From a bacterium HR29 (GTDB lineage Bacteria > Chloroflexota > Dehalococcoidia > Tepidiformales > Tepidiformaceae): a stretch of DNA of 64,000 nt. The stretch spans positions 663,501-727,500 of the forward strand of contig BEIF01000001.1 of assembly GCA_002898215.1 (NCBI GenBank). Reading direction: 5' to 3'. Below the pieces are notes generated by a model, which saw nothing but the letters and a program-made list of their open reading frames with translations, searched no databases and was not told where the DNA came from. Every line of letters begins with the position of its first letter. The first letter of the stretch is position 1. Below, in pieces: positions 1,774 to 23,353 of the stretch. The position numbers were made by a program, and so were the translations under genes.

Positions 1774-2949
1774 GTGGAGCTGCGATTCGGTGAGAAGGAA
1801 GAGAAGCTACGCCAGGAGGTCCGCGCTTTCCTCAAGGAGCAGCTCGGAGAGCCGCGACACCGGGGCTTCGCCTCGGTCTCGTCCGACGAGGAGTTCGAGC
1901 TCGCCAGGAAGTTCAACCAGGAGTTGGCCAAGCGCGGATGGATCGCGCCCGCCTGGCCGAAAGAGTACGGCGGGCTGGGTGCCTCGATCTTCGAGCAGAT
2001 GGTTTTCAACGAGGAGTTCGGTTACTGGGGCGCCCCCGACACCGGGACACGCGGCTTCGGTGTGGGGATGATCGGGCCGACGCTCATCATCCACGGCACC
2101 GAGGAGCAGAAGAAGAAGTACCTCCCCAAGATCACGAGCGGCGAACACATCTGGTGTCAGGGGTACAGCGAACCCGGCGCCGGCAGCGACCTCGCCTCGC
2201 TCCAGACCCGCGCCGTTCGCGAAGGCGACTACTACGTGATCAACGGTCAGAAGATCTGGACCTCGGGCGGGCACCGGGCGAACCAAATGTTCGCTCTCGT
2301 GCGTACCGACCCCGATGCACCCAAGCACCGCGGGATCACGTTCCTCATCATCGATGACATCAAGAACACGCCGGGCATCACCATCCGGCCCCTCATCAAC
2401 ATGGCGAACCGGCACCACTTCAACGAGGTCTTCTTCGAAGACGTTCGCGTGCCGGTGAGCAACCGCGTGGGCGAGGAGAACCGCGGCTGGTACGTGGGGA
2501 TGACCCTGCTCGACTTCGAGCGCTCCGGCATCGGCACCACGGCCGCGCAGCGGCGGACACTCGAGGTGCTCGCCGACTGGCTCCGTGGCGCGCATCCCGA
2601 CATCCGCCGGCGCCACCGGCTGAAGCTGGCCGATTTCGTGATTGCGAACAATGTCGGCCGCTTCCTCGGCTACCGCATCGGATGGCTGCAGTCCCAGGGG
2701 CGCGTGCCGAACTACGAAGCCTCGGTCGTCAAGATCTTCCAGTCCGAGCTCGGCCAGCGCATCTACAACTGGGCGGTCAACATGCTCGGCTTGGCGGGCC
2801 AGTTGATGCCCGAGGAGCCGCGCGCGCCGCTGTACGGCGACATGCCCGAGAACTACTTGGAATCGGTGCCGTCGACCATCTACTCGGGCACGAACGAGAT
2901 CCAGCGGAACATCATCGCCATACGCGGGCTGGGGTTGCCTCGCGGCTGA
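1774..2949 (+). CDS. Acyl-CoA dehydrogenase
   Basis: FAD-dependent acyl-CoA dehydrogenase of 391 aa that introduces the alpha-beta double bond in acyl-CoA thioesters. Visible family signatures are the N-terminal helical domain with WPKEYGG, the central beta domain with QGYSEPGAGSD and INGQKIWTSGG, and the C-terminal SGTNEIQRNIIAIRGLGLPRG region. The open frame extends upstream, but the GTG at 1774 follows a good AAGGGAGG site (1761-1768), and the frame upstream of it is antisense-type GC-rich sequence. It is paralogous to the genes at 26110 and 63685. The subfamily with these motifs often acts on branched or cyclic acyl-CoAs; the substrate here is unknown. Confidence 0.94.
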   Translation: MELRFGEKEEKLRQEVRAFLKEQLGEPRHRGFASVSSDEEFELARKFNQELAKRGWIAPAWPKEYGGLGASIFEQMVFNEEFGYWGAPDTGTRGFGVGMIGPTLIIHGTEEQKKKYLPKITSGEHIWCQGYSEPGAGSDLASLQTRAVREGDYYVINGQKIWTSGGHRANQMFALVRTDPDAPKHRGITFLIIDDIKNTPGITIRPLINMANRHHFNEVFFEDVRVPVSNRVGEENRGWYVGMTLLDFERSGIGTTAAQRRTLEVLADWLRGAHPDIRRRHRLKLADFVIANNVGRFLGYRIGWLQSQGRVPNYEASVVKIFQSELGQRIYNWAVNMLGLAGQLMPEEPRAPLYGDMPENYLESVPSTIYSGTNEIQRNIIAIRGLGLPRG

Positions 2950-2992
2950 CCGCGCCGCGCGCATCCTGCGGGGGCGGGCTTACACTCGTCCC

Positions 2993-4390
2993 GTGAAGTG
3001 GGACCGGGACGAGCTTGCGGCCCTCCGGCTCGCAGGCTACGCCGCCATCGCGGCGGCGCTCGTCTTCGTCGGGGCGCTGGTCTACTGGCAGGCGTTCCGC
3101 GACGACCTGAATTCCCATCCCGCCAACCCGCGGCTCGCCGCTGCCCTCGCTGCTCCCGGACGCGGCCGCATCCTCGACCGCGATGGCCACGTCCTCGCCC
3201 AGTCCCTTCCCGACGGCCGGCGCGTCTATCGGACGGCGGCCACCGCCCACGTGGTGGGCTACCTGTCGGGGCGGTATGGGGCCCAGGGGGCCGAGCTCGC
3301 CTTCAACGACGAATTGATCGGACGCCGCGGCGGTGACTGGCTGGCAGCTCTCCGCAGCGAGGTGCTGCGTGGCGCTCCCGAGGGCTTCGATGTCCGTCTC
3401 ACCATCGACCTCGACGTTCAGATGGCTGCAGCGTTGGCGCTCGGCAACCGGCCAGGCGCGGCGGTGGCGCTCGATGTCCGCACGGGGGACGTCCTCGCGA
3501 TGGTGAGCTGGCCGAACTGGGACCCGAACGCCTTTGCCGACGAAGCCCCGGCGCTCCTCGACGACCCGAAGGCGCCGCTCCTCAACCGGGCCACGCAAGG
3601 CTTGTACCCGCCAGGCTCCACCTTCAAGGTGGTGACCGCCGCTGCCGCGTTGTCCGAAGGACTGGTGACTCCGGAGACCATCGTGGTCTGCGACGAAGCG
3701 TACGTGATTTCCGGCTACACCGTCTCCTGCGGCAACGTTCCCCAGGGTCCTGGAACCTACCCGTTCCGCGATGCGTTCGCGTACTCCGTGAATGCCGTCT
3801 TCGCCCGGTTGGGTGTGGAGCTTGGCTGGCAGCCGCTCCTGCGGACGGCGCGGGCGTTCGGCTTCGAGTCCCCCATTCCTTTCGAGCTACCGACGGCTTC
3901 CTCCCAGGTTGTCGCCGGCCATTCCCCGCTGTCGGATGCGCTCCTGGCTAGCACCGCGTTTGGCCAGGGGGAGCTGCTCGTGACCCCGTTGCAGATGGCC
4001 CTGGTCGCCGCCGCCGTGGCGAACGATGGACTTCTTCCCCAGCCGCGGCTTCTGGCGGGGGTCTACGAGGGAGGCCGACGAACCGAGGGTCCGCCGGCTC
4101 CGCGGGCGCGCCGCGTGCTCGACGCACGGGTGGCTGGCGAACTTCGGAGCATGATGGCAGACGTGGTCGCGAAGGGTCAGGCAAACCTCGGCCCGCTCAA
4201 AATGCCTGCGGCAGGGAAGACCGGCACCGCCGAAACGGGCCGAGGCACGGCCCACGCCTGGTTCATCGGCTTCGCTCCGGTCGATGCCCCCAAGGTCGCC
4301 GTGGCGGTGATCGTCGAAGACGGCGGCCGCGGGGGCGAAGTGGCGGCCCCGGTCGCGGGGACGATCCTGCAGGCAGCGCTGGTGCCATGA
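2993..4390 (+). CDS. pbpA: Class B penicillin-binding protein (PbpA-like transpeptidase)
   Basis: Membrane-anchored D,D-transpeptidase that crosslinks peptidoglycan outside the membrane. A single N-terminal TM segment (about aa 13-34) is followed by a short non-penicillin-binding region and a transpeptidase domain with all three active-site motifs: STFK (209-212), SVN (265-267) and KTG (409-411). At 465 aa it matches the short actinobacterial PbpA type rather than FtsI. GTG start. It overlaps fhaA by 4 nt (ATGA), so the two are translationally coupled; the SEDS polymerase partner is encoded convergently at 5514-6800. Confidence 0.93.
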   Translation: MKWDRDELAALRLAGYAAIAAALVFVGALVYWQAFRDDLNSHPANPRLAAALAAPGRGRILDRDGHVLAQSLPDGRRVYRTAATAHVVGYLSGRYGAQGAELAFNDELIGRRGGDWLAALRSEVLRGAPEGFDVRLTIDLDVQMAAALALGNRPGAAVALDVRTGDVLAMVSWPNWDPNAFADEAPALLDDPKAPLLNRATQGLYPPGSTFKVVTAAAALSEGLVTPETIVVCDEAYVISGYTVSCGNVPQGPGTYPFRDAFAYSVNAVFARLGVELGWQPLLRTARAFGFESPIPFELPTASSQVVAGHSPLSDALLASTAFGQGELLVTPLQMALVAAAVANDGLLPQPRLLAGVYEGGRRTEGPPAPRARRVLDARVAGELRSMMADVVAKGQANLGPLKMPAAGKTGTAETGRGTAHAWFIGFAPVDAPKVAVAVIVEDGGRGGEVAAPVAGTILQAALVP

Positions 4391-6932: not shown

Positions 6933-8189
6933 TTGGACGCCTCGGAACTCCTCGGCGGCCGGTACCGGCTGGAGCGCCTCATTGGCCGGGGCGGAATGGC
7001 CGAGGTGTGGCTCGCCCGCGACGAGCGTCTCGGTCGCCCCGTGGCCGTGAAGGTGATGGATGACCGCCTCTCCGCGGCGGGAGAGTTCGGCGACACGTTG
7101 GAGAACGAAGCCCGGACCATCGCCCGCCTCCAGCACCCGAACATCGTGGCCGTCTTCGACGTTGGCGAGCACGAGGGCCGGCGGTACCTGGTGATGGAGT
7201 ATGTGCACGGGTCGTCGCTGCGCGACCTGCTGCGGCTACACGGGCGGCTCCCCTGGTCCGACGTCGTGCGGCTGGGTCGCCAAGCGGCGGCCGCGCTTGC
7301 CCACGCTCATCGCCAGGGGATCGTGCACTGCGACATCAAGCCCGAGAACATCCTGGTCGACCAGCAGGGAGTGGTGAAGGTCACCGATTTCGGTGTCGCC
7401 GAGGCCGTAACGAGAACGATGACGGCGGACGCCGCCCGTGAAATCCTCGGAACGGCCGCCTACCTCGCTCCCGAAGTGCTGGAGGGTGAGCCGCCCCGCC
7501 CGCCCGCGGACGTCTATTCGCTCGCACTCACCCTGTACGAAGCGGCGGCAGGCCGGCTTCCGTTCCAGGGGCCGACCCCGGCAGCGGTCGCAGTCCAGCG
7601 CCTCAGCGTGCCCCCCGCGCCGCTGCGCTCGCTCGTGCCCTCCGCACCTCCCGAGCTGGAGAGCGTGCTCGCCAGGGCGCTCGCCAGGGAGCCCGAGCAT
7701 CGATTCCCAACGGGAGCGGAGCTGGCTACTGCCCTCGCCCGCGTACCCTCGGGGCCGGCGTTCCGCCTCGCCGCACCGCCCGGTCGGCCGCCCTCGTCTC
7801 CGGGGCACCGGACCGAACGGCTCCGACCCCTGTCGGCGCCCCCGGCACGCCGGAGCTCCCTGGCTCGAGCAGGGATGCTCGCTGCGATAGCCGGAAGCCT
7901 CGCGCTCGTCGGCGTCGCGCTCGCCTTCTTGGTCGGTGGGTCGCTCGGCGGGGGTGGGGAGACGCCCACGCCCCTCCCGACCCTTCCTCCTGCGACTGCC
8001 ACGCCCCCTCCCGCGACCCAACCCTCAGAGAGCCCGTCCCCGGAGGCCACCCCGACTCCCGAGCCATCCCCGACGCCGACCCCGACGCCCAGTCCGACTC
8101 CGACCCCGTCGCCTACGCCGGAGCTCAGCCCCACGCCGAGCCCCACCCCCGCCCCGAGCCCGTCCCCCGCTCCCACCGCGACCCCGTAA
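6933..8189 (+). CDS. Membrane-anchored Ser/Thr protein kinase (PknB-like, no PASTA)
   Basis: Hanks-type kinase of 418 aa. The kinase domain (about 10-270) has the Gly-rich loop IGRGGMAEV, Lys40, DFG at 152-154 and APE at 179-181. The catalytic loop reads HCDIKPEN (132-139), so the Arg before the catalytic Asp134 is Cys, a non-RD kinase. A TM helix (about 313-336) leads to a ~75-aa outer tail of Pro, Thr and Ser with no PASTA domain, resembling a wall-spanning stalk. TTG start; a candidate AAGGAG lies 12 nt upstream, unusually far. The neighbours suggest FhaA/FhaB as substrates. No PstP-type phosphatase is in this cluster. Confidence 0.93.
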
Positions 8190-11246: not shown

Positions 11247-12231
<985 letters not shown>

Positions 12232-12292
12232 TCCTCCTCCTTCCGGACTCCCCCTGGGTCGTTCGGGGTGCGCGTTCGGTCGAGCCTGGGGG

Positions 12293-12321
12293 ATTATGGC
12301 CGATCGGACGTTCGAGGAAAA
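12293..12321 (-). promoter_or_regulatory. Candidate promoter of the opp/dpp ATPase operon
   Basis: On the minus strand CATAAT (12293-12298) is preceded at 17 bp by TTTTCC (12316-12321). The -10 is good and the -35 weak. The -35 overlaps the T tract of the preceding terminator. Confidence 0.4.
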
Positions 12322-12356
12322 GGGGTTCGTTCGATGAGGCCTATCGAACGCACCCC
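12318..12356 (-). terminator. Rho-independent terminator downstream of tRNA-Leu(UAG)
   Basis: Reading the minus strand, 14-bp arms (12343-12356 and 12322-12335, one mismatch, 7-nt loop) are followed immediately by TTTT (12318-12321). It lies about 200 bp downstream of tRNA-Leu. The rest of the gap 12232-12551 (320 bp) holds the opp promoter and no convincing gene. Confidence 0.65.
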
Positions 12357-12551
12357 GACACTCGGCGAATCGGAAGCTGGGGGTGTGTTCAGGGGCACGT
12401 CCTGACCGGACCTGCGCTGCTGCGTCTGGCCGCCAGGGCCGTCACGCCTTGGGGGTGTCGCACTCACGGAGTGCCGGTCTCGTGCGAACCGGGGGTCGCC
12501 GCGGGCTTCTCGTTCCTTGTCCGGGGAGGGTCGGCAGTGGCCCTGGGTATG

Positions 12552-12708: not shown

Positions 12709-15453
12709 ATGCTGGGTCTCACGGAGCTCTTGCAGCCATCCGACGCTGGGAACCAATGGCACGCTCGGGACGCTGGGGACGCGCTCCGCGGACTGAACAC
12801 CTCGGCTTCGGGACTGACGTCGGAAGAGGCGCGCCGCCGGCTGCGGCTGTACGGGCCGAACGAAATCGAGGGAGAACGGCCAGCTCCCGCCTGGGCGGTA
12901 CTGCTCCGCCAGCTTCGAAGCCCACTCATCTACATCCTCCTCGGTGCGGTGGTTGTCACCCTCGCTCTCGGCGAATTCATCGACGCCGGCGTTATCGCCG
13001 CGGTACTCGCGCTCAACACGACCATCGGCTTCGTGCAGGAACGGCGCGCCGAAGCTTCGGTGCTCGCCCTCGCGAAGCTCGCCAGCCCTCAGGCGCGTGT
13101 CCTGCGAGATGGTCGCGACATGGTCATTCCGAGCCGCGAGCTGGTTCCGGGCGATGTGGTCCTCCTCGAATCGGGCATGCGGGTGCCGGCCGACTTGCGG
13201 CTCCTCTCGGTCACAGCCCTGATGACCGACGAGTCGTTGCTAACGGGCGAATCGCTTCCCGTGGCGAAGGGAGTGGAGCCCGTCGCTTCGAACGCTCCCC
13301 TCGCCGACCGATCGTGTATGGCCTATGCGGGCACGGTCGTCGTTTCGGGGCGTGGCCGTGGAGTGGTAGTAGCCACCGGCCTCGCCACCGCCGTCGGCGG
13401 AATCGCCGAGGCCATCCGAACGGCAGAACGTCCCGAGACGCCGTTGCAGCGGAGGATGAACAGCTTCGCTCGGGTCGTGGGAGTCCTCGTCGGGGCCGGC
13501 GCAGCGGCTACCTTCGCGCTCGGCATTGCCCTGGGCGAACCCCCCTCGCACATGTTCAGCGTTGCCGTTGCGCTGGCGGTAGCCGCCGTCCCGGAAGGGT
13601 TGCCCGTCGTCTTCACCATCACGCTCGCCTTGGGCGTGCGGCGGATGGCTCGTCGAAACGCCATCGTTCGTCGCCTCCCGGCGGTGGAGACGCTCGGCAG
13701 CACCACCGTCATCGCCACCGACAAGACCGGCACGCTCACCGAAAACCGAATGGTGGTCCGGGCGGTGTGGTCGGCAGGCGAGCTCCGGCGCCTCGAGCCG
13801 GCTCAGGTGGCTCCGCCGCCGGCCGAGCCGCCTGCGCTGCCTGAGCCTCTACGCATGACGCTGATGGCAGGGGTGCTCACCAACGAGGCGGAGGTCGAGT
13901 TCCGGCCCGATGGGTATGACGCAACCGGCGACCCGACCGAGGTCGCACTGCTGCTCTCGGCAGCGGCGTTCGGGCTCGACCCCGAGGCGCTGCGCGAAGC
14001 GTGGGACGTCGAGGTCGAGGTCCCGTTCGAGCCCGTGCGGCAGTATTCGGCGGCGCTCCGGCGTAACGGGAGCGAGCGCTTCGTCTTCGTAAAGGGCGCT
14101 CCCGAGCGGGTGATCGAGCGTTGCACCCACCTGTTGACCGAAGACGGTCCGGCGCCCCTCGACCGTGAGCGGGTGTTGGAGGAAGCGCGCCGGCTCGCCG
14201 GCGAGGGCCTTCGAGTGCTCGCCATGGCCATCCGTCCCGTTGTAGGTAGTTCTGCCGTTTTGGAGTCCGAGCTTGGCGGCTTGACGTTGGCAGGGCTGCA
14301 AGCGATGCAGGACCCCCCTCGCCCCGGGGTTCGAGAGGCGATCGCTGGCTGCCGGCGGGCAGGGATCCGGGTGATGATGGTCACTGGCGACCACGCGGGG
14401 ACGGCGGAGGCGATCGCCGCGGAGGTTGGCATCGGCGGACCCTCGCCGACGGTGGTCACCGGGGCCCAGCTCGCCCGGATGTCCGAGCAGGAACTCGAGG
14501 AAGTGGTGGGGAGGGCCGATGTCTTCGCGCGGGTGGCCCCCGACGAGAAGCTCCGCATCGTTCAGGCGCTCCGCCGCCGGCAGGAGGTGGTGGCAGTCAC
14601 GGGCGACGGCGTGAACGATGCGCCTGCGCTGCGAGCGGCCGACATCGGTGTCGCGATGGGCCGAAGCGGCACAGATGTGGCCCGGGAAGCGGCGGACATC
14701 GTGCTTGCCGACGACAACTTCGTGACGATTTTCGCCGCCGTGCGCGAGGGGCGCGTCACGTTCGACAACATCCGCAAGGTCACCTACTTCCTCATCTCAA
14801 CCGGCGCCGCCTCGCTCGTTACGCTGCCGGCAGCGCTCATCCTGGGATGGCCCGTCCCGTTCGTTGCCGCTCAGCTCATCTGGTTGAACCTCGTTACGAA
14901 CGGCCTCCAGGACGTGGCACTGGCCTTCGAGCCCGGGGACCCCGATGTCCTCGACCGGCCGCCCCGGCCGACCAGGGAAGGGATTATCAGCCCTGTCCTT
15001 TGGGAACGGACGTTCTTCGTGGGGCTCGTCATGGCGGCCGGTACGCTTGCTCTCTTCCGCTGGGAGTTGGACCGGCCAGACACGACCCTCGCGGAGGCTC
15101 GAACGGTAGCGCTCACGGTGCTCGTACTGTTCCAGGTGTTCCACGTAGGGAACTCCCGCTCCGAATGGCAATCCGTATTCCTCCGCAATCCGCTATCGAA
15201 TCCGTTCCTGTTCTATGCAACCGCGGCCGCGGTCGGGATCCACGTCGCCGCCATTTACGCGCCGCCAACCCAGTACGTCCTGCGCGTCGAACCGATTGAC
15301 GCGGGCGCGTGGTCGCGGATCGTCGTGACGGCGGCAAGCGTCATCGCGGTGAGCGAGCTTCACAAGCTTCTGCGCGGGCCGCGCCGGCGGGGAGTGACGG
15401 GCGCGTCGCACTTGGGGCCGTTCGGACCCGTGTCCGGGACCGAACGGCGGTAG
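12709..15453 (+). CDS. P-type cation-transporting ATPase (P2 type, Ca2+-ATPase-like)
   Basis: Integral membrane ion pump of 914 aa. It has an N-terminal cation-ATPase domain, the actuator motif TGES (179-182), helix M4 motif PEGLP (295-299), phosphorylation site DKTGT (Asp338) and the hinge GDGVNDAPAL. PEGLP with the overall layout fits the P2A Ca2+/Mn2+ or related Na+/K+ pumps rather than heavy-metal pumps, since no N-terminal CxxC domain or CPx motif exists. The ion cannot be assigned from motifs alone. It is a stand-alone gene, divergent from tRNA-Leu(UAG). Confidence 0.94.
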   Translation: MLGLTELLQPSDAGNQWHARDAGDALRGLNTSASGLTSEEARRRLRLYGPNEIEGERPAPAWAVLLRQLRSPLIYILLGAVVVTLALGEFIDAGVIAAVLALNTTIGFVQERRAEASVLALAKLASPQARVLRDGRDMVIPSRELVPGDVVLLESGMRVPADLRLLSVTALMTDESLLTGESLPVAKGVEPVASNAPLADRSCMAYAGTVVVSGRGRGVVVATGLATAVGGIAEAIRTAERPETPLQRRMNSFARVVGVLVGAGAAATFALGIALGEPPSHMFSVAVALAVAAVPEGLPVVFTITLALGVRRMARRNAIVRRLPAVETLGSTTVIATDKTGTLTENRMVVRAVWSAGELRRLEPAQVAPPPAEPPALPEPLRMTLMAGVLTNEAEVEFRPDGYDATGDPTEVALLLSAAAFGLDPEALREAWDVEVEVPFEPVRQYSAALRRNGSERFVFVKGAPERVIERCTHLLTEDGPAPLDRERVLEEARRLAGEGLRVLAMAIRPVVGSSAVLESELGGLTLAGLQAMQDPPRPGVREAIAGCRRAGIRVMMVTGDHAGTAEAIAAEVGIGGPSPTVVTGAQLARMSEQELEEVVGRADVFARVAPDEKLRIVQALRRRQEVVAVTGDGVNDAPALRAADIGVAMGRSGTDVAREAADIVLADDNFVTIFAAVREGRVTFDNIRKVTYFLISTGAASLVTLPAALILGWPVPFVAAQLIWLNLVTNGLQDVALAFEPGDPDVLDRPPRPTREGIISPVLWERTFFVGLVMAAGTLALFRWELDRPDTTLAEARTVALTVLVLFQVFHVGNSRSEWQSVFLRNPLSNPFLFYATAAAVGIHVAAIYAPPTQYVLRVEPIDAGAWSRIVVTAASVIAVSELHKLLRGPRRRGVTGASHLGPFGPVSGTERR

Positions 15454-16796: not shown

Positions 16797-16870
16797 TGGA
16801 GGCGCCGGCCGGATTCGAACCGGCGGTCGGGGTTTTGCAGACCCCTGCCTTGCCACTTGGCCACGGCGCC
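16797..16870 (-). tRNA. tRNA-Cys (anticodon GCA), integration target
   Basis: Complete minus-strand cloverleaf: acceptor GGCGCCG/CGGCGCC, anticodon loop TCTGCAA (GCA), T arm GCCGG-TTCGAAT-CCGGC, discriminator U73 and encoded CCA. Its 5' end, D arm, anticodon arm and start of the variable loop (16826-16870) are identical to a fragment at 23308-23352, so this gene is the left attachment site of the integrated element. The sequence upstream of its 5' end now belongs to the element; no clear promoter is seen there. Confidence 0.95.
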
Positions 16871-16871
16871 A
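16826..16871 (-). repeat. attL: 46-bp direct repeat inside tRNA-Cys
   Basis: Exact 46-bp match to 23308-23353. It ends one base beyond the tRNA 5' end and stops in the variable loop, with mismatches on both sides of each copy. Together the two copies define the insertion boundaries. Confidence 0.92.
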
Positions 16872-16941
16872 GACAACGTTCCGCAGATTCGGCAGGCCCG
16901 CTTCCAGCGTACGACAGCGGCCCGAAAGCAGCGAGGCCGCA

Positions 16942-16985
16942 GGTGGTACGCCGGTGGTACCGCGGTGGTACCGAGGTGGTACGCC
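16942..16985 (+). repeat. Four tandem 11-bp GGTGGTAC repeats (left arm)
   Basis: Four consecutive 11-bp units beginning GGTGGTAC at 16942, 16953, 16964 and 16975, followed by variable CSN. The same GTGGTAC core with 11-bp spacing recurs inside the right end. Position 70-115 bp inside attL suggests arm-type integrase or excisionase binding sites. The surrounding gene-free stretch 16872-17243 (372 bp) shows no convincing gene. Confidence 0.7.
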
Positions 16986-17234
16986 CATGGCGAGCGCCAG
17001 CGTAGGCGGGCAGGGGGCGAGTCTGCAAGTCCCCGGGCGTTCGGCAATTTCCGAAAACTCCGCGGCGTGCGCGCGCGACTGGCGGGCGTCCCCCGAGGGG
17101 CCGCAAGCGGCAGAGATTGCGCACCCCCTCCCGGCTCCGCGTCGCAGTCCCCCGCTGCGTCGCCGCACCTGCCGCCGCGCCCTAAGGGCGCGTGCTGCTC
17201 GTGCGAAAAATCGGGTCCGGGCGCGCTGTCCGCC

Positions 17235-17260
17235 GGGGGCCGGCTAACTTTTCGGCCCCC
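17235..17260 (-). terminator. Hairpin at the end of the element operon
   Basis: GGGGGCCG (17235-17242) pairs with CGGCCCCC (17253-17260); the stop codon of the last operon gene (17244-17246) sits in the loop. No T tract follows on the minus strand, so terminator activity is uncertain. Confidence 0.35.
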
Positions 17261-17759
17261 TTCCCCGGGCCTGGACGTGGGCGGAGGCGACGATGCGGGC
17301 GAGGGTGAAGCGCAGCGCTCGGCAGTCGAGGACGTGGCCGCAGAAGAAGCGTTCGTGCTCGCTGCCGCGCTTGACGATGAGCCAGAGGGCGCTGCCGCGG
17401 TCGGGGGCGACGGCGAACTCCTGGGCGAGGCGGGTGAGCGTGCCGAGGAGGCGGGCCGTGTCGAGCTCCCGCCCCAGGCGGAGGCGGACGAAGATGGCGC
17501 TGCCGCGGCGTTCGGCGGTGGTGAGCGGCCAGCCGAGGAGGTGGCGGGGCTGCCGCGCGGGCGGCTGCGAGGCGCGGCGGATGGTGCCGAGGAGGGCGTC
17601 GAGCCCGCCGGGGGCAGCCTTCAGGTGGTCGAGGTGGGTGCGGAGGCGGGCGTCTAGGGCCCAGGGGGCGAGGAGCCGGCAGCGGCCGTCCGGGAGGGGG
17701 ACGAAGCCCACGCCGGCGGCGACAGCGGCGCGGTACCAGCGCTCGGCGGTGCGGCTCAT
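17244..17759 (-). CDS. Element protein, unknown function (171 aa)
   Basis: Last gene of the element operon. Not recognised. It is basic, with RTAERWYRAAVAAGVGFV at the N terminus, an RHLLGWPL turn and a Phe/Trp-containing C-terminal half (SALWLIVKRG). Its ATG overlaps the stop of the DnaC-like gene by 4 nt (ATGA), so it is translationally coupled and may work with the replication module. No signal peptide or TM segment is seen. Confidence 0.7.
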   Translation of the reverse strand: MSRTAERWYRAAVAAGVGFVPLPDGRCRLLAPWALDARLRTHLDHLKAAPGGLDALLGTIRRASQPPARQPRHLLGWPLTTAERRGSAIFVRLRLGRELDTARLLGTLTRLAQEFAVAPDRGSALWLIVKRGSEHERFFCGHVLDCRALRFTLARIVASAHVQARGRGPKS

Positions 17760-18574
17760 CCCGTCACCTCCTCGAGGGGCTCAGGCGCGGGAGCCGAGGG
17801 GGCGTTGGACTGGACCGCTCGCAGGGAGGGGCCGCTGAGGACGAGGGGGCGGCAATTCTCGAGGATGCGGGAGCCGATGCGCTCCCCGAGGCGCGCGAGG
17901 AAGTCTTCCTTCCGGGCGTTCGTCGTCACGATGAGTTGCGGCCACTCCTCCCGGACGTCCGGGGCGGACTGCGCGCCGTACCAGCAATCGACGATGTCGA
18001 AGAGGAGCTCCTGCCCCCAGTCAGGGAGGGCGGAGTTCCCGAAGTCGTCGAGGATGAGGAGTCCGTAACTCTCGAGCACGTAGAAGGCGAACCGGAGGTA
18101 CTTCTCCAGGAGCGGCCGGTCGTACCGGGCCGCCCGGAGGAGAGCCGGCACGCTCAGGTAGAGCGAGGGATTGTGGGCGAAGCGGAAGACGAGGGCCGCG
18201 GAGAGGTACGTCTTCCCCGTTCCGGGGCCGCCGGCCAGGAGGAGCGATTCCCCCTTCTCGACGAGGGCGGCGGCGCGGGCCCCGGCTTTGGCCAGCGAGG
18301 GGTGAAGCTTCTCCAGCCGCGCCTCGGCGTACCGAGCCGGCAGATTCGCCGCTTGCCAGAGCAAGACGTCAACCCAGCTGCTGTCTTCGGACAGCGTTCT
18401 CCACGCTCCCCAGAAGCTGTATCGCTGGACGGGCTGGCGTTCCGCCTTCAGTCCCCGCTCGACGCGCTCGCCCTCCTCGCAGAAGCAGGCCATCCACTTC
18501 CCGTGCTCGTTCCGGCGCTCCCCGTGGACCTCGAGGAGTCCGTCATCGAGGCAGAACTCGCAGTTCTCCCACAT
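17756..18574 (-). CDS. DnaC-like AAA+ ATPase, putative helicase loader
   Basis: Protein of 272 aa from ATG 18574, chosen because GGGGAGG sits 9 nt upstream; the GTG at 18583 abuts that site. Walker A GGPGTGKT (115-122), Walker B LLILDDFG (172-179) and sensor I TTNAR follow the IstB/DnaC-type pattern. An N-terminal Cys cluster (C5, C8, C30, C32) resembles the zinc finger of DnaC/DnaI loaders. It starts 2 nt after the stop of the iteron-bearing initiator gene, mirroring the O-P gene pair of lambdoid phages, so recruiting the host replicative helicase to the element origin is the likely role. Confidence 0.85.
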   Translation of the reverse strand: MWENCEFCLDDGLLEVHGERRNEHGKWMACFCEEGERVERGLKAERQPVQRYSFWGAWRTLSEDSSWVDVLLWQAANLPARYAEARLEKLHPSLAKAGARAAALVEKGESLLLAGGPGTGKTYLSAALVFRFAHNPSLYLSVPALLRAARYDRPLLEKYLRFAFYVLESYGLLILDDFGNSALPDWGQELLFDIVDCWYGAQSAPDVREEWPQLIVTTNARKEDFLARLGERIGSRILENCRPLVLSGPSLRAVQSNAPSAPAPEPLEEVTG

Positions 18575-18576
18575 GA

Positions 18577-19107
18577 TTACCACCCTCCCCAGTTCTCACT
18601 GAACGTCCACCCTCGCTGCATGAGCTCCTCCTTCGAGGGAGAGGCTGAAGACTTCGAGGAGGAGGCGGGCGCGCGCTTAGCGCGCCCCTCCTCCTTCCTG
18701 GGCAGTTCATAGGCAGTTAGGGTGTCACTGTGACACCTTTTCCTGTCGCCGCTGACACCTTTTTTTGTCGCCCCTGACACCTTTTCCCCGTCACCCTGAC
18801 ACCTTTTCGGGCCCTCAAAAGGTGTCACCGTGACACCTTTTCCGGCCTCCAGGCAGAGCCGGTACGTCGAGGTACGGGTGCGGCCGCGGCGCTCCTCGAC
18901 GGCGACGAGCCCGAGCTTCTCGAGCTCGCGGAGGGTGCGCTGGACGGTGCGCTCGCTCAATCCCGTCCGGCTCGCGAGGGTGGCGACGGCCGGGAAGCAC
19001 TCGCCGCGCTCGTCGGCGAACCGGAGGAGCGCCACGAGCACGAGGCGCTGATTCGCGGTGAGGTCGGGGGCGTCGAGGATGGCGCGGAGCGCGGTTAGGG
19101 GCTTCAT
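18577..19107 (-). CDS. Winged-helix protein, putative replication initiator with internal iterons
   Basis: Protein of 176 aa. Residues 15-85 form a winged helix-turn-helix (HTH_36-like): LTANQRLVLVALLRFAD, then SRTGLSERTVQRTLRELEKLGLV, typical of phage and plasmid initiators. Residues about 89-129 are encoded by an array of 11-bp iterons and are therefore low in structure; the C terminus is Lys/Ser-rich. ATG 19107 follows GGAGG and overlaps the upstream gene by 4 nt. The combination of DNA-binding domain, embedded iterons and downstream DnaC-like gene suggests an O-type initiator. An ordinary transcriptional regulator is the alternative. Confidence 0.78.
   Translation of the reverse strand: MKPLTALRAILDAPDLTANQRLVLVALLRFADERGECFPAVATLASRTGLSERTVQRTLRELEKLGLVAVEERRGRTRTSTYRLCLEAGKGVTVTPFEGPKRCQGDGEKVSGATKKGVSGDRKRCHSDTLTAYELPRKEEGRAKRAPASSSKSSASPSKEELMQRGWTFSENWGGW
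18721..18841. repeat. Iteron array, candidate origin of replication of the element
   Basis: TGACACCTTTT occurs at 18731, 18753, 18775 and 18797, exactly 22 bp apart, and again at 18831. Inverted copies flank the set: GGTGTCA at 18721-18727 and a full AAAAGGTGTCA at 18817-18827. Both outer inverted pairs have the same 3-nt spacer; the right pair forms a perfect 25-bp palindrome (18817-18841). Because 22 is not a multiple of 3, the repeats change reading frame inside the gene, so selection acts on DNA rather than protein. Confidence 0.82.
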
Positions 19108-19466
19108 CGGGCCGCCTCCAGCGGCAGCGGCAGCTGCCGGGCCGCCGGGTCGATGAGCCCCCAATGGGCGAGGGCAAGCGCCACTTGCGGCTCAAAGCCG
19201 GAGCGCTCCACGGGGAACCCGTGGCGGCGGAAGTCCTCGACGGTTGCCGTCCAGCGCCGCTGGCGTTCGTCTTCGAGCTCCACCAGGGCCGACGGGCCCC
19301 CCTCCACCTCGAGGAGCTCCAGGTGCGCCTCGGCGATGGCCCACGCTGGCGGACGCCGCAGCTGGTGGCGGCGGGAATCGACTTGCTTCCGCAGGACTGC
19401 GCGGCCGTCCCGCCAGACGATGGCGCCGACGACTCGACCGTCAGGAAGGGGGAGAGGTACACTCAT
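19104..19466 (-). CDS. Element protein, unknown function (120 aa)
   Basis: Only the C-terminal part of the open frame is coding: ATG 19466 follows GGGAGG with 7-nt spacing. The protein begins with a beta-rich stretch (PLPDGRVVGAIVWRDGRAVLRK), then helices with Arg/Glu pairs, and ends LPLPLEAAR. Not recognised. It overlaps the RHH-like gene upstream by 26 bp and the initiator gene downstream by 4 nt, so it sits inside the replication/regulatory block of the operon. Confidence 0.65.
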   Translation of the reverse strand: MSVPLPLPDGRVVGAIVWRDGRAVLRKQVDSRRHQLRRPPAWAIAEAHLELLEVEGGPSALVELEDERQRRWTATVEDFRRHGFPVERSGFEPQVALALAHWGLIDPAARQLPLPLEAAR

Positions 19467-19662
19467 CCGAGAACCTCCCACTGCCGCCCGCGCGCGTGAC
19501 TCGCCCATGGCCGCGCCGGGCGGCTTCTTGCTGCTGCCACTCGAGCAAGGACCGGATGAGCATCCAGCGCGCCTGCGCGCCAAGGCTACGAAGCTCGGAC
19601 TGCGCAGCCGCCCGCAGGAGCTCGTAGTACTCGTCATCGAGCCGCAGCATGAACGCCTTCAT
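19441..19662 (-). CDS. Ribbon-helix-helix-like small protein
   Basis: Small protein of 73 aa whose first ~45 residues (KAFMLRLDDEYYELLRAAA, then two helices ending RSLLEWQ) fit an Arc/CopG ribbon-helix-helix DNA-binding fold. The Arg-rich tail is probably disordered. Candidate repressor or excisionase of the element, with the inverted repeat at 22106-22123 or the GTGGTAC sites as possible targets; this is inference. The ribosome site is weak. Confidence 0.6.
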   Translation of the reverse strand: MKAFMLRLDDEYYELLRAAAQSELRSLGAQARWMLIRSLLEWQQQEAARRGHGRVTRAGGSGRFSDECTSPPS

Positions 19663-19720
19663 GCTTGGAGCATCCCAGGCGCCGGCACGCGGACCCAGTG
19701 AGGAAATGGGTGAGAAAAAT

Positions 19721-20653
19721 CTACGATTCGCGGTGAATGCTATCCGCGAAGCGAATAGCTTGCTCTACGAAGGACGGCCAGTTCGAGAACCCGAACTCGC
19801 GCCGCTTTTCCTTCAGCACACGCGCGGAGTCCACCGCCTCGCGCGGCAGCAGGCCTCGCTCGACGGCCTCGTTGGCAAGACGCTCGGCCGAGGGATAGTC
19901 GCCCCGCGCCACGATATGGCGAACGAGCGGGCTGAGCGCGCGGAGGAACTCCTCCCGGCTCGCCCAGCGCGGCGGCCTGCCCCTTCGCGGCTGCGGAAGC
20001 CGCGCCACCTGCGGGCTGCGCCGCCAGAACGTCCCGATGCGGTACACCGGACGCCACCTGGCCGCGAGGCGACCGTCCTCGACGGCAAGGTCGAGCGAGG
20101 GCGTGCTGGATCTCCCAAGCAGCACGTCCTCGACCGCCACAGGGAGCGCGTTCACGAGCCAGTCGTTGTACGGCCAGACCTCCAGGGCCAGCGGACGCAG
20201 GTCCTCGCGAACCGCGGGCCCCGGGTCATACAGCACGACGGGCAGCCGCTCCCACTCCCACGCCGCGAGCCGGCGGAGCGCCTCCGCGTAGACCTCCTGC
20301 ACCAGACGCTCGAATCCTGCGTCCGACTCGCCGGCCGCGACCCACAGCAGCCAGGCCGTGCTTCTCGCGGCCGGCCAGCTCGTCCATCGGGGCGGGTAGA
20401 TGTCCGACACCAGCCAGTCGAGGTACCGGTGCAGCGCCTCATCCCCCTCCTCGACCGCCCGCAGGAGCCGCTCCCGGGCGGTGCGGCGCCGCTCCTCCCG
20501 CTGCTCGGCCCAGCGGAGGGCGGCTTGGGCCTCGGCGAGCGCCTGCGCCGCTACTGCGAGCACCGGCTGGAGCTGGTCGACGATGCGTGCGACGTCCGCT
20601 GCAGCCCTGCGGAGGGAGGCGAGGAGACCTGGGGAAAGGGGGACCTCACCCAC
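19721..20653 (-). CDS. Element protein, unknown function (310 aa)
   Basis: Largest unrecognised gene of the element. GTG 20653 follows AGGGGG. The N-terminal third is helical with heptad-like Ala/Leu/Glu spacing (about aa 10-75, possible coiled coil); the middle is aromatic-rich (WLVSDIYPPRW, WEWERLPVVLYD, VWPYNDWLVNALP); the C terminus is basic. No catalytic motif, TM segment or signal is evident. It could be the cargo or interference gene of the element. Codon use looks like that of its neighbours. Confidence 0.72.
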   Translation of the reverse strand: MGEVPLSPGLLASLRRAAADVARIVDQLQPVLAVAAQALAEAQAALRWAEQREERRRTARERLLRAVEEGDEALHRYLDWLVSDIYPPRWTSWPAARSTAWLLWVAAGESDAGFERLVQEVYAEALRRLAAWEWERLPVVLYDPGPAVREDLRPLALEVWPYNDWLVNALPVAVEDVLLGRSSTPSLDLAVEDGRLAARWRPVYRIGTFWRRSPQVARLPQPRRGRPPRWASREEFLRALSPLVRHIVARGDYPSAERLANEAVERGLLPREAVDSARVLKEKRREFGFSNWPSFVEQAIRFADSIHRES

Positions 20654-20776
20654 CGCGCACCCCCTGCAGTGCGCTCGGCCGGGCCCCGGCGCCAGGGACC
20701 GCCGGGCTCATCGGGCGGGGCGTCCCCCGCGCACCCGGCCGGCCAACCCGATGGTAGTCCCGCAGCGCGCGGCGGC

Positions 20777-21100
20777 CTAGCCGCGCTGGAACGGCCCGAG
20801 GAGGCGGAACGCCAGCCCGTGGCGGCGCGCAACCTCCTCGAGCTCTGCCATCAGCCGAGGAATGCGCGAGGCCTCGGCCCAGACCAGCGCGCTCACGAGG
20901 TACTCCGCCCCTGCGCCATCCTGCAGGGCAGCGGACCGCGCCCGGCGGCGCTCATCCGCGAGCCGGCGGCTGAGGGCGGCGCGATGGGCCGCCTCCCGCA
21001 GCCTGGGCTTCGCATCCGGGCTCCGCATCCAGGCCCAGTAGTGCGCGCGGCTGCAGAAGCGGTTGGCGGCGGGCCCTCCGCACAGGGCGCAGGCGCTCAT
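20777..21100 (-). CDS. Element protein with zinc-knuckle-like N terminus (107 aa)
   Basis: ATG 21100 follows GGGGGAGG with 7-nt spacing. The N terminus reads MSACALCGGPAANRFCSRAHYW, with CxxC plus FC and H that could bind zinc. The rest is Arg/Ala/Leu-rich helix. Function unknown. The upstream Com-like frame runs 149 nt into this gene in another frame, an unusually long overlap. Confidence 0.62.
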   Translation of the reverse strand: MSACALCGGPAANRFCSRAHYWAWMRSPDAKPRLREAAHRAALSRRLADERRRARSAALQDGAGAEYLVSALVWAEASRIPRLMAELEEVARRHGLAFRLLGPFQRG

Positions 21101-21212
21101 CCCCAAACCTCCCCCACCAGCCGCAGGGACAGCCCGCCTCGAACCGCCGCAGCACGGTCCTGAACAAGAACCGCCCGCAGCGCCCGCACCGAACCTCGGT
21201 GACTTCCTCCAT
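20952..21212 (-). CDS. Com-like zinc-finger protein (86 aa)
   Basis: The first ~45 residues resemble the Com family of small zinc-binding regulators first known in phage Mu: VRCGRCGRFLFR, then AGCPCGWWGRFGDE, giving two CxC/CxxC pairs. ATG 21212. The remaining ~40 codons read antisense-like sequence across the start of the next gene, so the functional part is probably only the N-terminal finger. Mu Com activates translation of mom; here no modification gene is recognised, so the target is unknown. Confidence 0.55.
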   Translation of the reverse strand: MEEVTEVRCGRCGRFLFRTVLRRFEAGCPCGWWGRFGDERLRPVRRARRQPLLQPRALLGLDAEPGCEAQAAGGGPSRRPQPPARG

Positions 21213-21277
21213 CGCCTGTCATGATGCTCCCTCCGCGTCGTCTCCGCCCCGCGGGCCGCTCGAGCAGGCCCCTCCGT

Positions 21278-21664
21278 CTACCGCGCCCGCGCCGCTGCCG
21301 TGCTCCAGGAGCGCTCCACCCACCGCCTGCACTCGAGGGTGCGGTGGCCGAGGGGCTCGACCTCGGTGCCGACCGGCCCGGCGATGCCGTCCAGGCCGCG
21401 GTAGCAAACGTCCTCCCCCTCGTGGACGAGCCGGGGCTCGTCCACGGGCGAGGCGACGACCGTCCAGCGGTCGGTGATGCGGTGCAGGTGCGGCTCGTTC
21501 TGGCCGCACCAGAGCTCGCCGCGCTCGCACCGATGGCGCCGGTCGATATCGTTCCCCCGCAGCCGACGGTAGGCAGCGCCCCCCTCCAGGGGCTCGAACC
21601 AACCATGCACCCGCCGGCAGCCGGGGCATGGGTCGTGGTTGCCGCTCTCCAGGTGATGCACCAT
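21278..21664 (-). CDS. Element protein, Cys/His-rich (128 aa)
   Basis: ATG 21664 is preferred because GGGAGG lies 7 nt upstream; an in-frame TTG at 21670 is too close to it. Contains HHLESGNHDPCPGCRRVHGW near the N terminus (CxxC flanked by His) and further Cys at RCERGELWCG, so a metal-binding fold is likely. Otherwise not recognised. It begins 12 bp after the preceding gene ends, in the same operon. Confidence 0.62.
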   Translation of the reverse strand: MVHHLESGNHDPCPGCRRVHGWFEPLEGGAAYRRLRGNDIDRRHRCERGELWCGQNEPHLHRITDRWTVVASPVDEPRLVHEGEDVCYRGLDGIAGPVGTEVEPLGHRTLECRRWVERSWSTAAARAR

Positions 21665-21676
21665 TCGCAAGCCTCC

Positions 21677-22000
21677 CTACGGGACGATCTCCTCGAGGTC
21701 GAGGAGCTCGCACAGCTCGGAGATGAGGTGCGCGGGCACACCGCGCTCCTCGAGGAGCTCGGGAACCTGCCCGAGGTCGTCGAGGACGTCGGCCGTGACC
21801 TCGTCGCGCTCCCCCTGCCAGGCCGTTCGGTACGCGGCCACGAGGACGTACCGGCCCGCAGCGGTGCGGTAGACCTCGAGCTGCCACCAGCGCGTCTGCT
21901 CTCGGCCCCGGTCCCAGTGCGTGTCCAGCCGGGCGAGGCGCTCCCCCTGGAACCGGAGCGGCGGCCGCCCATCGGTGCGGGCGATGTACTGCGTCTGCAT
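21677..22000 (-). CDS. Element protein, unknown (107 aa), first gene of operon
   Basis: ATG 22000 follows AGGAGG with 7-nt spacing (an adjacent GTG at 22003 is possible). The middle has a beta-rich RWWQLEVYRTAAGRYVLVAAYRTAWQGE pattern, and the C terminus is acidic with LISELCELLDLEEIVP. Not recognised. It is the first gene after the AT-rich promoter/operator region at 22100-22125 and so probably heads the long element transcript. Confidence 0.62.
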   Translation of the reverse strand: MQTQYIARTDGRPPLRFQGERLARLDTHWDRGREQTRWWQLEVYRTAAGRYVLVAAYRTAWQGERDEVTADVLDDLGQVPELLEERGVPAHLISELCELLDLEEIVP

Positions 22001-22105
22001 CACAGCACCTCCTGTCGAAGTCGCTCCGCTGAGCCGCCCGAGGCCTCCGCGGGCGGTCCTCGGCTGAGGCCCTGAAATGCCCGAGAACCGCGGTCGCGGG
22101 CTATC

Positions 22106-22123
22106 GGTATATGCGTGTATACC
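22106..22123. promoter_or_regulatory. Inverted repeat GGTATA-N6-TATACC, candidate operator
   Basis: Perfect 6-bp arms with a 6-bp spacer in a locally AT-rich patch of the 184-bp gap between the integrase end (22185) and the first operon gene (22000). The repeat contains TATAC -10-like hexamers on both strands, so a repressor bound here would block the element operon promoter. Confidence 0.5.
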
Positions 22124-22184
22124 CCTGCGCGTTTTCGCCCGATTTCGGGCCTCTGAGGGCCCTCTGCGGCGATGTTTCCGGCCC

Positions 22185-23228
22185 TCACAGCGCCGCCTCC
22201 CGCAGGGCGACGTCGAAGGCTCGGGCTGCAGCCTTGTCGGAGCGCAGCGCGTGGGCGTACACCGATGCCGTCACCGCCGGGCTGGCATGGCCGAGGCGCT
22301 GGGCCACCTCGGTGATGGGCACGCCCGCCGCGAGCAGCACGGCCGCGTGGGCGTGGCGCAGGTCGTGGCGGGAGAGGAGCGGCACCCCGGCCCTGCGGCA
22401 GAGGGCGGCCATCGCCGACCGCAGCCCCCAGGGGCTCGCCCCAGGGAAGACTTCCGCCTCCGGGGAGATGCTGCGCGGGAGGCGGTCCAGGGCTTCGCGG
22501 GCGAGTTGGGTGAGGTGGACGACCCGGTTGCCGGCGGGCGTCTTCGGGGCCTCGACGACGGGTGCCCTGCCGACCCAGGTCTTCGAGCGCTCGATGCGGA
22601 CGGTGCCGCGGGCGAGGTCGACGCCGCCCCATCGCAGCGCCAGGGCCTCGCCCAGCCGGCACCCGGTCCCGACCAGGAACAGGATGAGCGGCGCGTAGCG
22701 GCTGCGGGAGGCGCGCACGGCCGCGAGGAAGCGGCCGAGCTCCTCTTCGCTCCAGGTCCGGCGGCGGCTCGGACGGTAGGCCGGCGGGTCGACCCGATAT
22801 GCCGGGTTGCTGCCGATGAGACCGAGGCGGACCGCAACCTTGAGCGCCTGGCGGAGGTAGGAGAAGCCGAGGCTGAGGGTGCGGGGGCCCACCCCCTCCT
22901 CCCGCAGCTCCGAGAGGGCGAAGGCGAGGTGGGCAGGTTGGAGGCGGTCGAGCCGGAGGCCTCCGAGGCGGCCGAGGAACGGGCGGAGGGCGGTCTCGTA
23001 CCGGCGGCGGCTGCTCGGCCGGAGCTGCTTCTCGGCGAGCCAGCGCTCGACCCACTGGCGGAGGCTGATGCGCTGCGGCGGGGTGAGGGTGCGGAGTGCG
23101 GCGCGGCGCCTCAGCTCCTCGAGGCGCTCAGTCAGCTCCCGTTTGGTCTTGGCGGTGACCCAGTAGCGGCGACCGCCGATGGTGACGGACGCCTCCCAAT
23201 GACCCTTCGAGTGGCGGCGCATGGACAC
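22185..23228 (-). CDS. int: Tyrosine site-specific integrase
   Basis: Phage-type tyrosine recombinase of 347 aa (345 if the ATG at 23222 is used). An N-terminal arm-binding-like region (GHWEASVTIGGRRYWVTAKTK), a SAM-like core-binding domain (about 55-145) and a catalytic domain are present. The full catalytic set is visible: Arg191, Lys229, His288-x-x-Arg291, His314 and Tyr324. It lies 80 bp from attR and most likely excises and integrates the element at tRNA-Cys. The start codons and ribosome site sit inside an inverted repeat. Confidence 0.95.
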   Translation of the reverse strand: MSMRRHSKGHWEASVTIGGRRYWVTAKTKRELTERLEELRRRAALRTLTPPQRISLRQWVERWLAEKQLRPSSRRRYETALRPFLGRLGGLRLDRLQPAHLAFALSELREEGVGPRTLSLGFSYLRQALKVAVRLGLIGSNPAYRVDPPAYRPSRRRTWSEEELGRFLAAVRASRSRYAPLILFLVGTGCRLGEALALRWGGVDLARGTVRIERSKTWVGRAPVVEAPKTPAGNRVVHLTQLAREALDRLPRSISPEAEVFPGASPWGLRSAMAALCRRAGVPLLSRHDLRHAHAAVLLAAGVPITEVAQRLGHASPAVTASVYAHALRSDKAAARAFDVALREAAL

Positions 23229-23248
23229 CTTCCCTGGCAGGTGTCCAT
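23221..23248 (-). promoter_or_regulatory. Inverted repeat over the integrase start
   Basis: Perfect 10-bp arms ATGGACACCT (23221-23230) and AGGTGTCCAT (23239-23248) with an 8-nt loop. The minus-strand loop carries CAGGGA, the likely ribosome site, while the 3' arm contains the GTG start and overlaps the ATG alternative. It could be an operator or a translation-control hairpin. Confidence 0.55.
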
Positions 23249-23258
23249 GGGCGTCTCA

Positions 23259-23276
23259 GTGGTACCAGCGTGGTAC
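23259..23276 (+). repeat. Two GTGGTAC repeats 11 bp apart (right arm)
   Basis: GTGGTAC at 23259-23265 and 23270-23276, 31 bp inside attR, matches the core and 11-bp spacing of the left-end array. Candidate arm-type sites for the integrase. Confidence 0.6.
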
Positions 23277-23307
23277 GGGGCGCGGAACGAACTTGGAATC
23301 GGGCACT

Positions 23308-23353
23308 GTCGGGGTTTTGCAGACCCCTGCCTTGCCACTTGGCCACGGCGCCA
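23308..23353 (-). repeat. attR: 46-bp fragment of tRNA-Cys 5' half
   Basis: Identical to 16826-16871. It contains the acceptor 5' strand, D arm and anticodon arm but no T arm or 3' acceptor strand, so it is not a functional tRNA. It lies 11 bp downstream of tRNA-Leu(GAG) and marks the original start of the tRNA-Cys gene. Confidence 0.92.

Follow-up and report, generated by a model that had tools for sequence, protein, structure and literature searches.

A small integrative replicon in the tRNA-Cys gene of a Chloroflexota bacterium and its shared protein with a clamp-motif-like tail

What kind of element occupies the tRNA-Cys gene of bacterium HR29, a member of the Dehalococcoidia, and how might so small a replicon copy itself and move? 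We took up this question in a 64,000-nucleotide stretch of the genome (the window), in which a first-pass annotation had described a 6.5-kb integrative replicon between 46-bp direct repeats. A repeat search of the window found the two copies to be exact, with an insert of 6,436 bp between them, and the element is present once in the genome. The repeat spans nucleotides 1-45 of tRNA-Cys(GCA), anticodon stem-loop included, reaching from one base ahead of the first nucleotide to just beyond the anticodon stem, and both of its ends fit tRNA anatomy. The intact tRNA stands on the 16797 side and is the single tRNA-Cys detected, with no match to a second one in the genome; the displaced fragment sits 11 bp from tRNA-Leu(GAG). 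The features of the two ends are as follows.

16797-16870, minus strand: tRNA-Cys(GCA), the rebuilt target, its 5′ part supplied by the element (ARAGORN and Rfam)
16826-16871, no strand: 46-bp attachment repeat at the intact tRNA-Cys (exact direct repeat)
16943-16983, plus strand: four candidate integrase arm-type sites GTGGTACS at 11-bp spacing (sequence search)
22106-22123, no strand: candidate operator upstream of g2, an AT-rich inverted repeat GGTATA-6-TATACC (sequence only)
22185-23222, minus strand: tyrosine integrase (PF00589, PHROG 1)
23220-23249, no strand: perfect 11-bp inverted repeat across the int start codon, hairpin or operator (sequence and RNA fold)
23259-23277, plus strand: two candidate integrase arm-type sites GTGGTACS at 11-bp spacing (sequence search)
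23308-23353, no strand: 46-bp attachment repeat, displaced 5′ fragment of tRNA-Cys (exact direct repeat; flank joining)

The integrase, already called complete on first reading, is an intact open reading frame with matches to PF00589 (E = 1.2e-19) and PHROG 1 (E = 1.8e-69). The centres of the GTGGTACS sites lie 109-142 bp from the anticodon at the four-copy end and 46-57 bp from it at the two-copy end. Such spacing is the geometry expected for the arm-type sites of a lambda-type integrase, and these putative arrays independently indicate that the two ends are real. We noted that, in transcripts entering from tRNA-Leu, the inverted repeat at 23220-23249 would fold into an RNA hairpin that hides the int start codon.

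Joining the two flanks of the element gives a Leu-Cys tRNA tandem that is the same as the tandem of its relatives. The joined flanks, used as a query, had some match in 38/38 family genomes, mostly across both tRNAs. The first-pass annotation had proposed a search for empty tRNA-Cys sites in related genomes, and these exist: tRNA-Cys was uninterrupted in 29/29 family relatives whose junction was inspected and stood directly behind the tRNA-Leu end in 28 of them, the exception being L067, where the tRNA-Leu end is not visible in the stretch inspected. Among the 38 genomes of the family the insert was found in this one only, and the exact 46-bp repeat, present twice here, is absent from the rest of the family. 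When the element was compared with the family genomes at the nucleotide level, which could reveal CRISPR spacers, the matches were short and GC-rich only. That the locus is an assembly artefact or a chance repeat has a negligible probability, since we found no point in support of it, and the 46 exact bases stop at the tRNA end, arm repeats stand at both ends, relatives have empty sites and the element is embedded in a 1.56-Mb contig. With its integrase, flanking tDNA repeat and empty site in relatives, the locus is a site-specific tRNA-integrated element. It is a replicon present in single copy and precisely integrated at its site, its genes are intact, and in sum it is real, precise and probably functional.

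All genes of the element lie on the minus strand, from the integrase through small genes and a ribbon-helix-helix gene to the initiator and loader, with overlaps within the groups g7-g8-g9 and g10-g11; the main reading frames are open and have high third-position GC.

21677-22000, minus strand: g2, EXLDI-like small protein (TIGR04342 E = 6e-5, below the cut-off; weak plasmid matches)
21278-21664, minus strand: g3, Cys-rich, no family (family profile searches)
20777-21100, minus strand: g5, no family, overlapped by the uncertain reading frame g4 (family profile searches)
19721-20653, minus strand: g6, 310 aa, orphan (relative searches)
19441-19662, minus strand: g7, ribbon-helix-helix regulator (weak Pfam/PHROG matches; same place in relatives)
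19104-19466, minus strand: g8, conserved, ends in the clamp-motif-like QLPLPL (homologue searches, alignment, tail comparison)
18577-19107, minus strand: g9, winged-helix replication initiator, lambda-O-like (PF13730 E = 5e-17, PHROG 270 E = 1e-21)
18721-18850, no strand: iterons TGACACCTTTT, candidate origin, within g9 (sequence count)
17756-18574, minus strand: g10, DnaC-like helicase loader (PHROG 50, PDB 3ecc)
17244-17759, minus strand: g11, no family, 4-bp overlap with g10 (family profile searches)

In profile searches no element gene matched capsid, portal, terminase, relaxase or secretion families, which bears out the earlier remark that capsid, terminase, relaxase and secretion genes are lacking, and PADLOC gave no credible match to defence cargo in the element. 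The good ribosome sites ascribed to the genes hold for most of them but not for g6 (start 20653). The statement that about eight small genes have no known family stands for g3, g5, g6 and g11; it fails for g8, which has at least 17 relatives, and for g2 and g7, which resemble the EXLDI (at a low score) and ribbon-helix-helix families, so that the element belongs to a wider set and is no singleton. No relatives of g6 were found in 197 class genomes or in IMG/VR, and its structure model was unusable. The reality of g4 (start 21212), which overlaps g5, is uncertain. A small reading frame at 20952-21212, in another frame than g5, has a Com-like CxxC...CxC zinc motif at its start (Pfam Com E = 0.5).

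The replication genes proposed at first pass, an initiator with internal iterons and a DnaC-like loader, were recovered by profile searches: g9 matches PHROG 270/1032/391 with E values down to 1e-21, and g10 matches PHROG 50 (E = 8.6e-27) and the DnaC structure PDB 3ecc (E = 1.4e-8). The iteron TGACACCTTTT has six copies in the window, all within 18731-18841, against 0.17 expected. These iterons lie within the initiator gene, which is followed by the loader gene, as in the layout of lambda O and P; iterons, initiator and loader together make this an iteron replicon with a lambda-type initiator. No close relatives of the g10 loader were found in IMG/VR or GTDB contigs. Loader matches in most relatives were rejected as evidence of a shared element, being mostly longer reading frames with two matches each, or prophages.

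The main finding, and the most interesting part of the element, is g8. Searching jointly with the element's small proteins, we detected g8 homologues elsewhere in the class, at 29-42% identity, and an alignment search found the protein in 8/393 class genomes and 10/400 phylum genomes, each count including the window's own genome. One MAG (GTDB contig scan) and one 39.7-kb viral contig (IMG/VR) added further members, giving a comparison set of 18, mostly from Chloroflexota. A clamp-like C-terminal motif ends 16 of the 18, compared with 2/599 other proteins of the examined loci, and takes the form QLxLF, QGRLF, QLxLxL or a near variant: the strict QLSLF in two members (L169, L170), QLNLF in L167, QLHLF in L171, QLPLF in L172 and L173, and QLPLPL in the window. 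The viral contig L135 and L163 are without it. QLxLxL is the hexapeptide form of the clamp motif, as in Hda, and the window's tail is a hexapeptide variant and not the strict pentapeptide, a point against the clamp reading. The p-value of 1e-27 for this enrichment is overstated, because the pattern was written after the tails had been seen and the members share ancestry; the stronger argument is that in the alignment so short a motif is kept behind a non-conserved linker of 0 to ~70 residues. In bacterial clamp-binding proteins the C-terminus bears QL(S/D)LF (PMC9690074). The g8 protein ends in a variant of this motif, and its tail looks built to grip the host replication clamp. The predicted fold of g8 is a good model (pLDDT 89) and resembles uncharacterised tailed-virus proteins in BFVD (E = 3e-6, TM 0.66). 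We claim no enzyme activity for g8, its PDB matches being weak (Hjc-like, E = 0.06, TM 0.4).

The gene following g8 is usually a replication gene, although its type varies between loci and in L126 and L162 it is the next but one. The window has a winged-helix initiator, L162, L166, L169 and L170 a Prim-Pol, L133 a primase/helicase, L126, L164, L168, L173 and L174 an AAA_25 protein, and L171 and L172 a D5_N protein; no recognised replication gene stands beside g8 in L165, L167 or the motif-less L135 and L163. A 4-bp stop/start overlap joins g8 to the next gene in the window, L126, L133, L162 and L170, and also in L127 if its start is 6095, and most loci have a small ribbon-helix-helix, XRE or MerR-like gene ahead of g8. 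This arrangement bears on what g8 may do with the clamp. The same element could use g8 to block the clamp and slow the replication of the host or of a rival phage, much as elongation is halted by the toxin SocB, a clamp binder with the usual motif (PMC9690074); we regard this as unlikely, as g8 overlaps or adjoins a replication gene in most loci, which suits a role in replication.

Seven g8 loci are bounded by tRNA repeats, with sizes of 6.5-10 kb.

Window: 6.5 kb
L164: 8.1 kb
L167: 7.9 kb
L169: 10.0 kb
L170: 7.2 kb
L173: 9.5 kb
L133: 8.7 kb

Immediately downstream of the replication gene, L168 and L169 have a gene with matches to several PHROG terminase small subunits. The bounded L169 showed no further packaging or virion gene among its tested reading frames, and its gene set would fit a satellite using the packaging of a helper. 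As separate observations, L164 encodes a HEPN-like protein (12820-13596; RiboL-PSP-HEPN E = 2e-5, below the cut-off), possibly defence cargo; L169 has two tyrosine-recombinase-like genes in one island (2622-3587 and 11359-12444), as apparently does L173 (2959-3882 and 4295-5209, the first judged by eye).

Is the element then a phage satellite? Satellites are defined with a size of 7-20 kb (PMC13376191); the window element at 6.5 kb is marginally below this, and its relatives measure 7.2-10 kb. Its layout is of the PICI kind, with att repeats, an integrase, regulatory and replication genes and no structural genes. Against this reading, neither a terminase small subunit nor any further satellite hallmark was found in the window element, and the host genome has no HK97-type portal; a packaging-redirecting gene, which not all satellites have, is found as the terminase small subunit of L168 and L169. 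Relaxase and transfer genes are without a match, unlike in an integrative conjugative or mobilizable element. The first-pass annotation had named a phage satellite or a minimal integrative plasmid; this is still the right pair of candidates, and the terminase-small-subunit gene of a related island tilts it to the satellite, a reading favoured by the relatives. A minimal plasmid would excise, replicate from its iterons and move by transformation or hitch-hiking, with no phage involved. The iteron origin with its initiator, the element's lack of a packaging gene and the lack of any HK97-type portal in the host genome would suit it, but the initiator and loader profiles are phage-type and a related bounded island has the terminase small subunit, and we consider it rather doubtful. 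Very improbable, in our view, is a prophage that has lost its structural genes by deletion: the lambda-like order of an initiator with internal iterons followed by a loader agrees with such an origin, and the host family has prophages with DnaC-like genes and integrases, but the main reading frames are open, overlapping and rich in third-position GC, the repeats are exact and the bounded relatives are all within the same small size range.

We therefore put forward, as slightly better than an even prospect, a satellite-like integrative replicon whose g8 would recruit or hijack the host clamp. Int would exchange strands at the anticodon loop; after excision g9 would bind the iterons inside its own gene, and g10 would then load host DnaB there. 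The g8 protein, translated with the initiator, would use its C-terminal QLPLPL to bind the host beta sliding clamp, and would either bring the host polymerase to the origin or take the clamp from the host, in parallel to the plasmid initiator TrfA, whose motif is built in. The likeliest route of transfer would be packaging by a helper phage.

A further feature is the side of the tRNA that is restored. Islander lists 3,760 tRNA islands with 3′ fragments and 159 with 5′ fragments (PMC4383910), and rebuilt bacterial tRNAs are reported to retain the original promoter nearly always (PMC8371274). The window element restores the 5′ half of tRNA-Cys. Since attP brings in that half, the rebuilt tRNA is parted from tRNA-Leu and so from the Leu-Cys tandem; it now follows the last element gene, on the same strand, at a distance of 373 bp. 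No terminator-like site was found between the two on that strand, nor any convincing sigma-70 site for tRNA-Cys within the element, and the tRNA is probably transcribed from the element. Restoration of the 5′ half occurs in four of the six directional g8 islands, whereas its share in Islander is 4.1% (binomial 4e-5, or 6e-4 without the window element). The L169 repeat extends 80 bp upstream of its tRNA and contains TTGACG-17-TATAAT, so this island brings a copy of a promoter with it. The host does not determine the sidedness, since the small islands found through integrases in the host family (L071, L072, L083) restore the 3′ half. The integration mode of g8 islands is not simply that of one integrase clade either: the window integrase has its nearest relatives in L166 and in L170, the latter a 3′ island. 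L083 (G003) is a 6.1-kb tRNA-Ser island without g8 (repeats 1071-1136 and 7153-7218); its integrase belongs to the same broad family, and it has a weak match to the Sf6 terminase small subunit (E = 0.004). L071 (8968-17202) and L072 (3199-10356) are related 7-8 kb tRNA-Met islands of two family members, sharing a repetitive, tail-fibre-like protein of 454-479 aa.

We found no published account of phage satellites in Chloroflexota in the open-licence literature, and the g8 protein, shared with small elements across the phylum, is previously undescribed. Tentatively, and with a little less than even confidence, we suggest that a broad class of tRNA-integrated satellites of 6.5-10 kb exists in Chloroflexota, marked by a regulator-g8-replication cassette. 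In this cassette a small clamp-binding adaptor would be combined with interchangeable replication enzymes, and the satellites would prefer the rare 5′-side integration, leaving an essential host tRNA open to transcription from the element. If true, an adaptor common to elements with unrelated replication enzymes would show how small parasites can take over the host replisome irrespective of their initiator. The g8 sequence offers a handle for finding such elements, and the 5′-side insertion into a tRNA gene present in single copy makes control of an essential host tRNA by an element open to test.

Among known systems, the PICI/SaPI satellites (including StCI of Streptococcus) likewise hold an integrase, regulators and a replication module between att repeats and have no virion genes; the window element differs from them in its 6.5-kb size, in that no terminase small subunit or primase was found, and in its clamp-motif gene g8. 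Lambda O/P and RK2 TrfA share with it iterons inside or beside the initiator and a loader next, and TrfA, whose interaction with the clamp at iteron plasmids has been described (PMC4980987), carries a clamp motif; in the window element, however, the clamp-like motif is on a separate small protein, g8, that is paired with several kinds of replication enzyme. Islands with 5′ tRNA fragments (159/3919 in Islander; archaeal pTN3-like elements) are a rare class, yet it holds 4/6 of the directional g8 islands.
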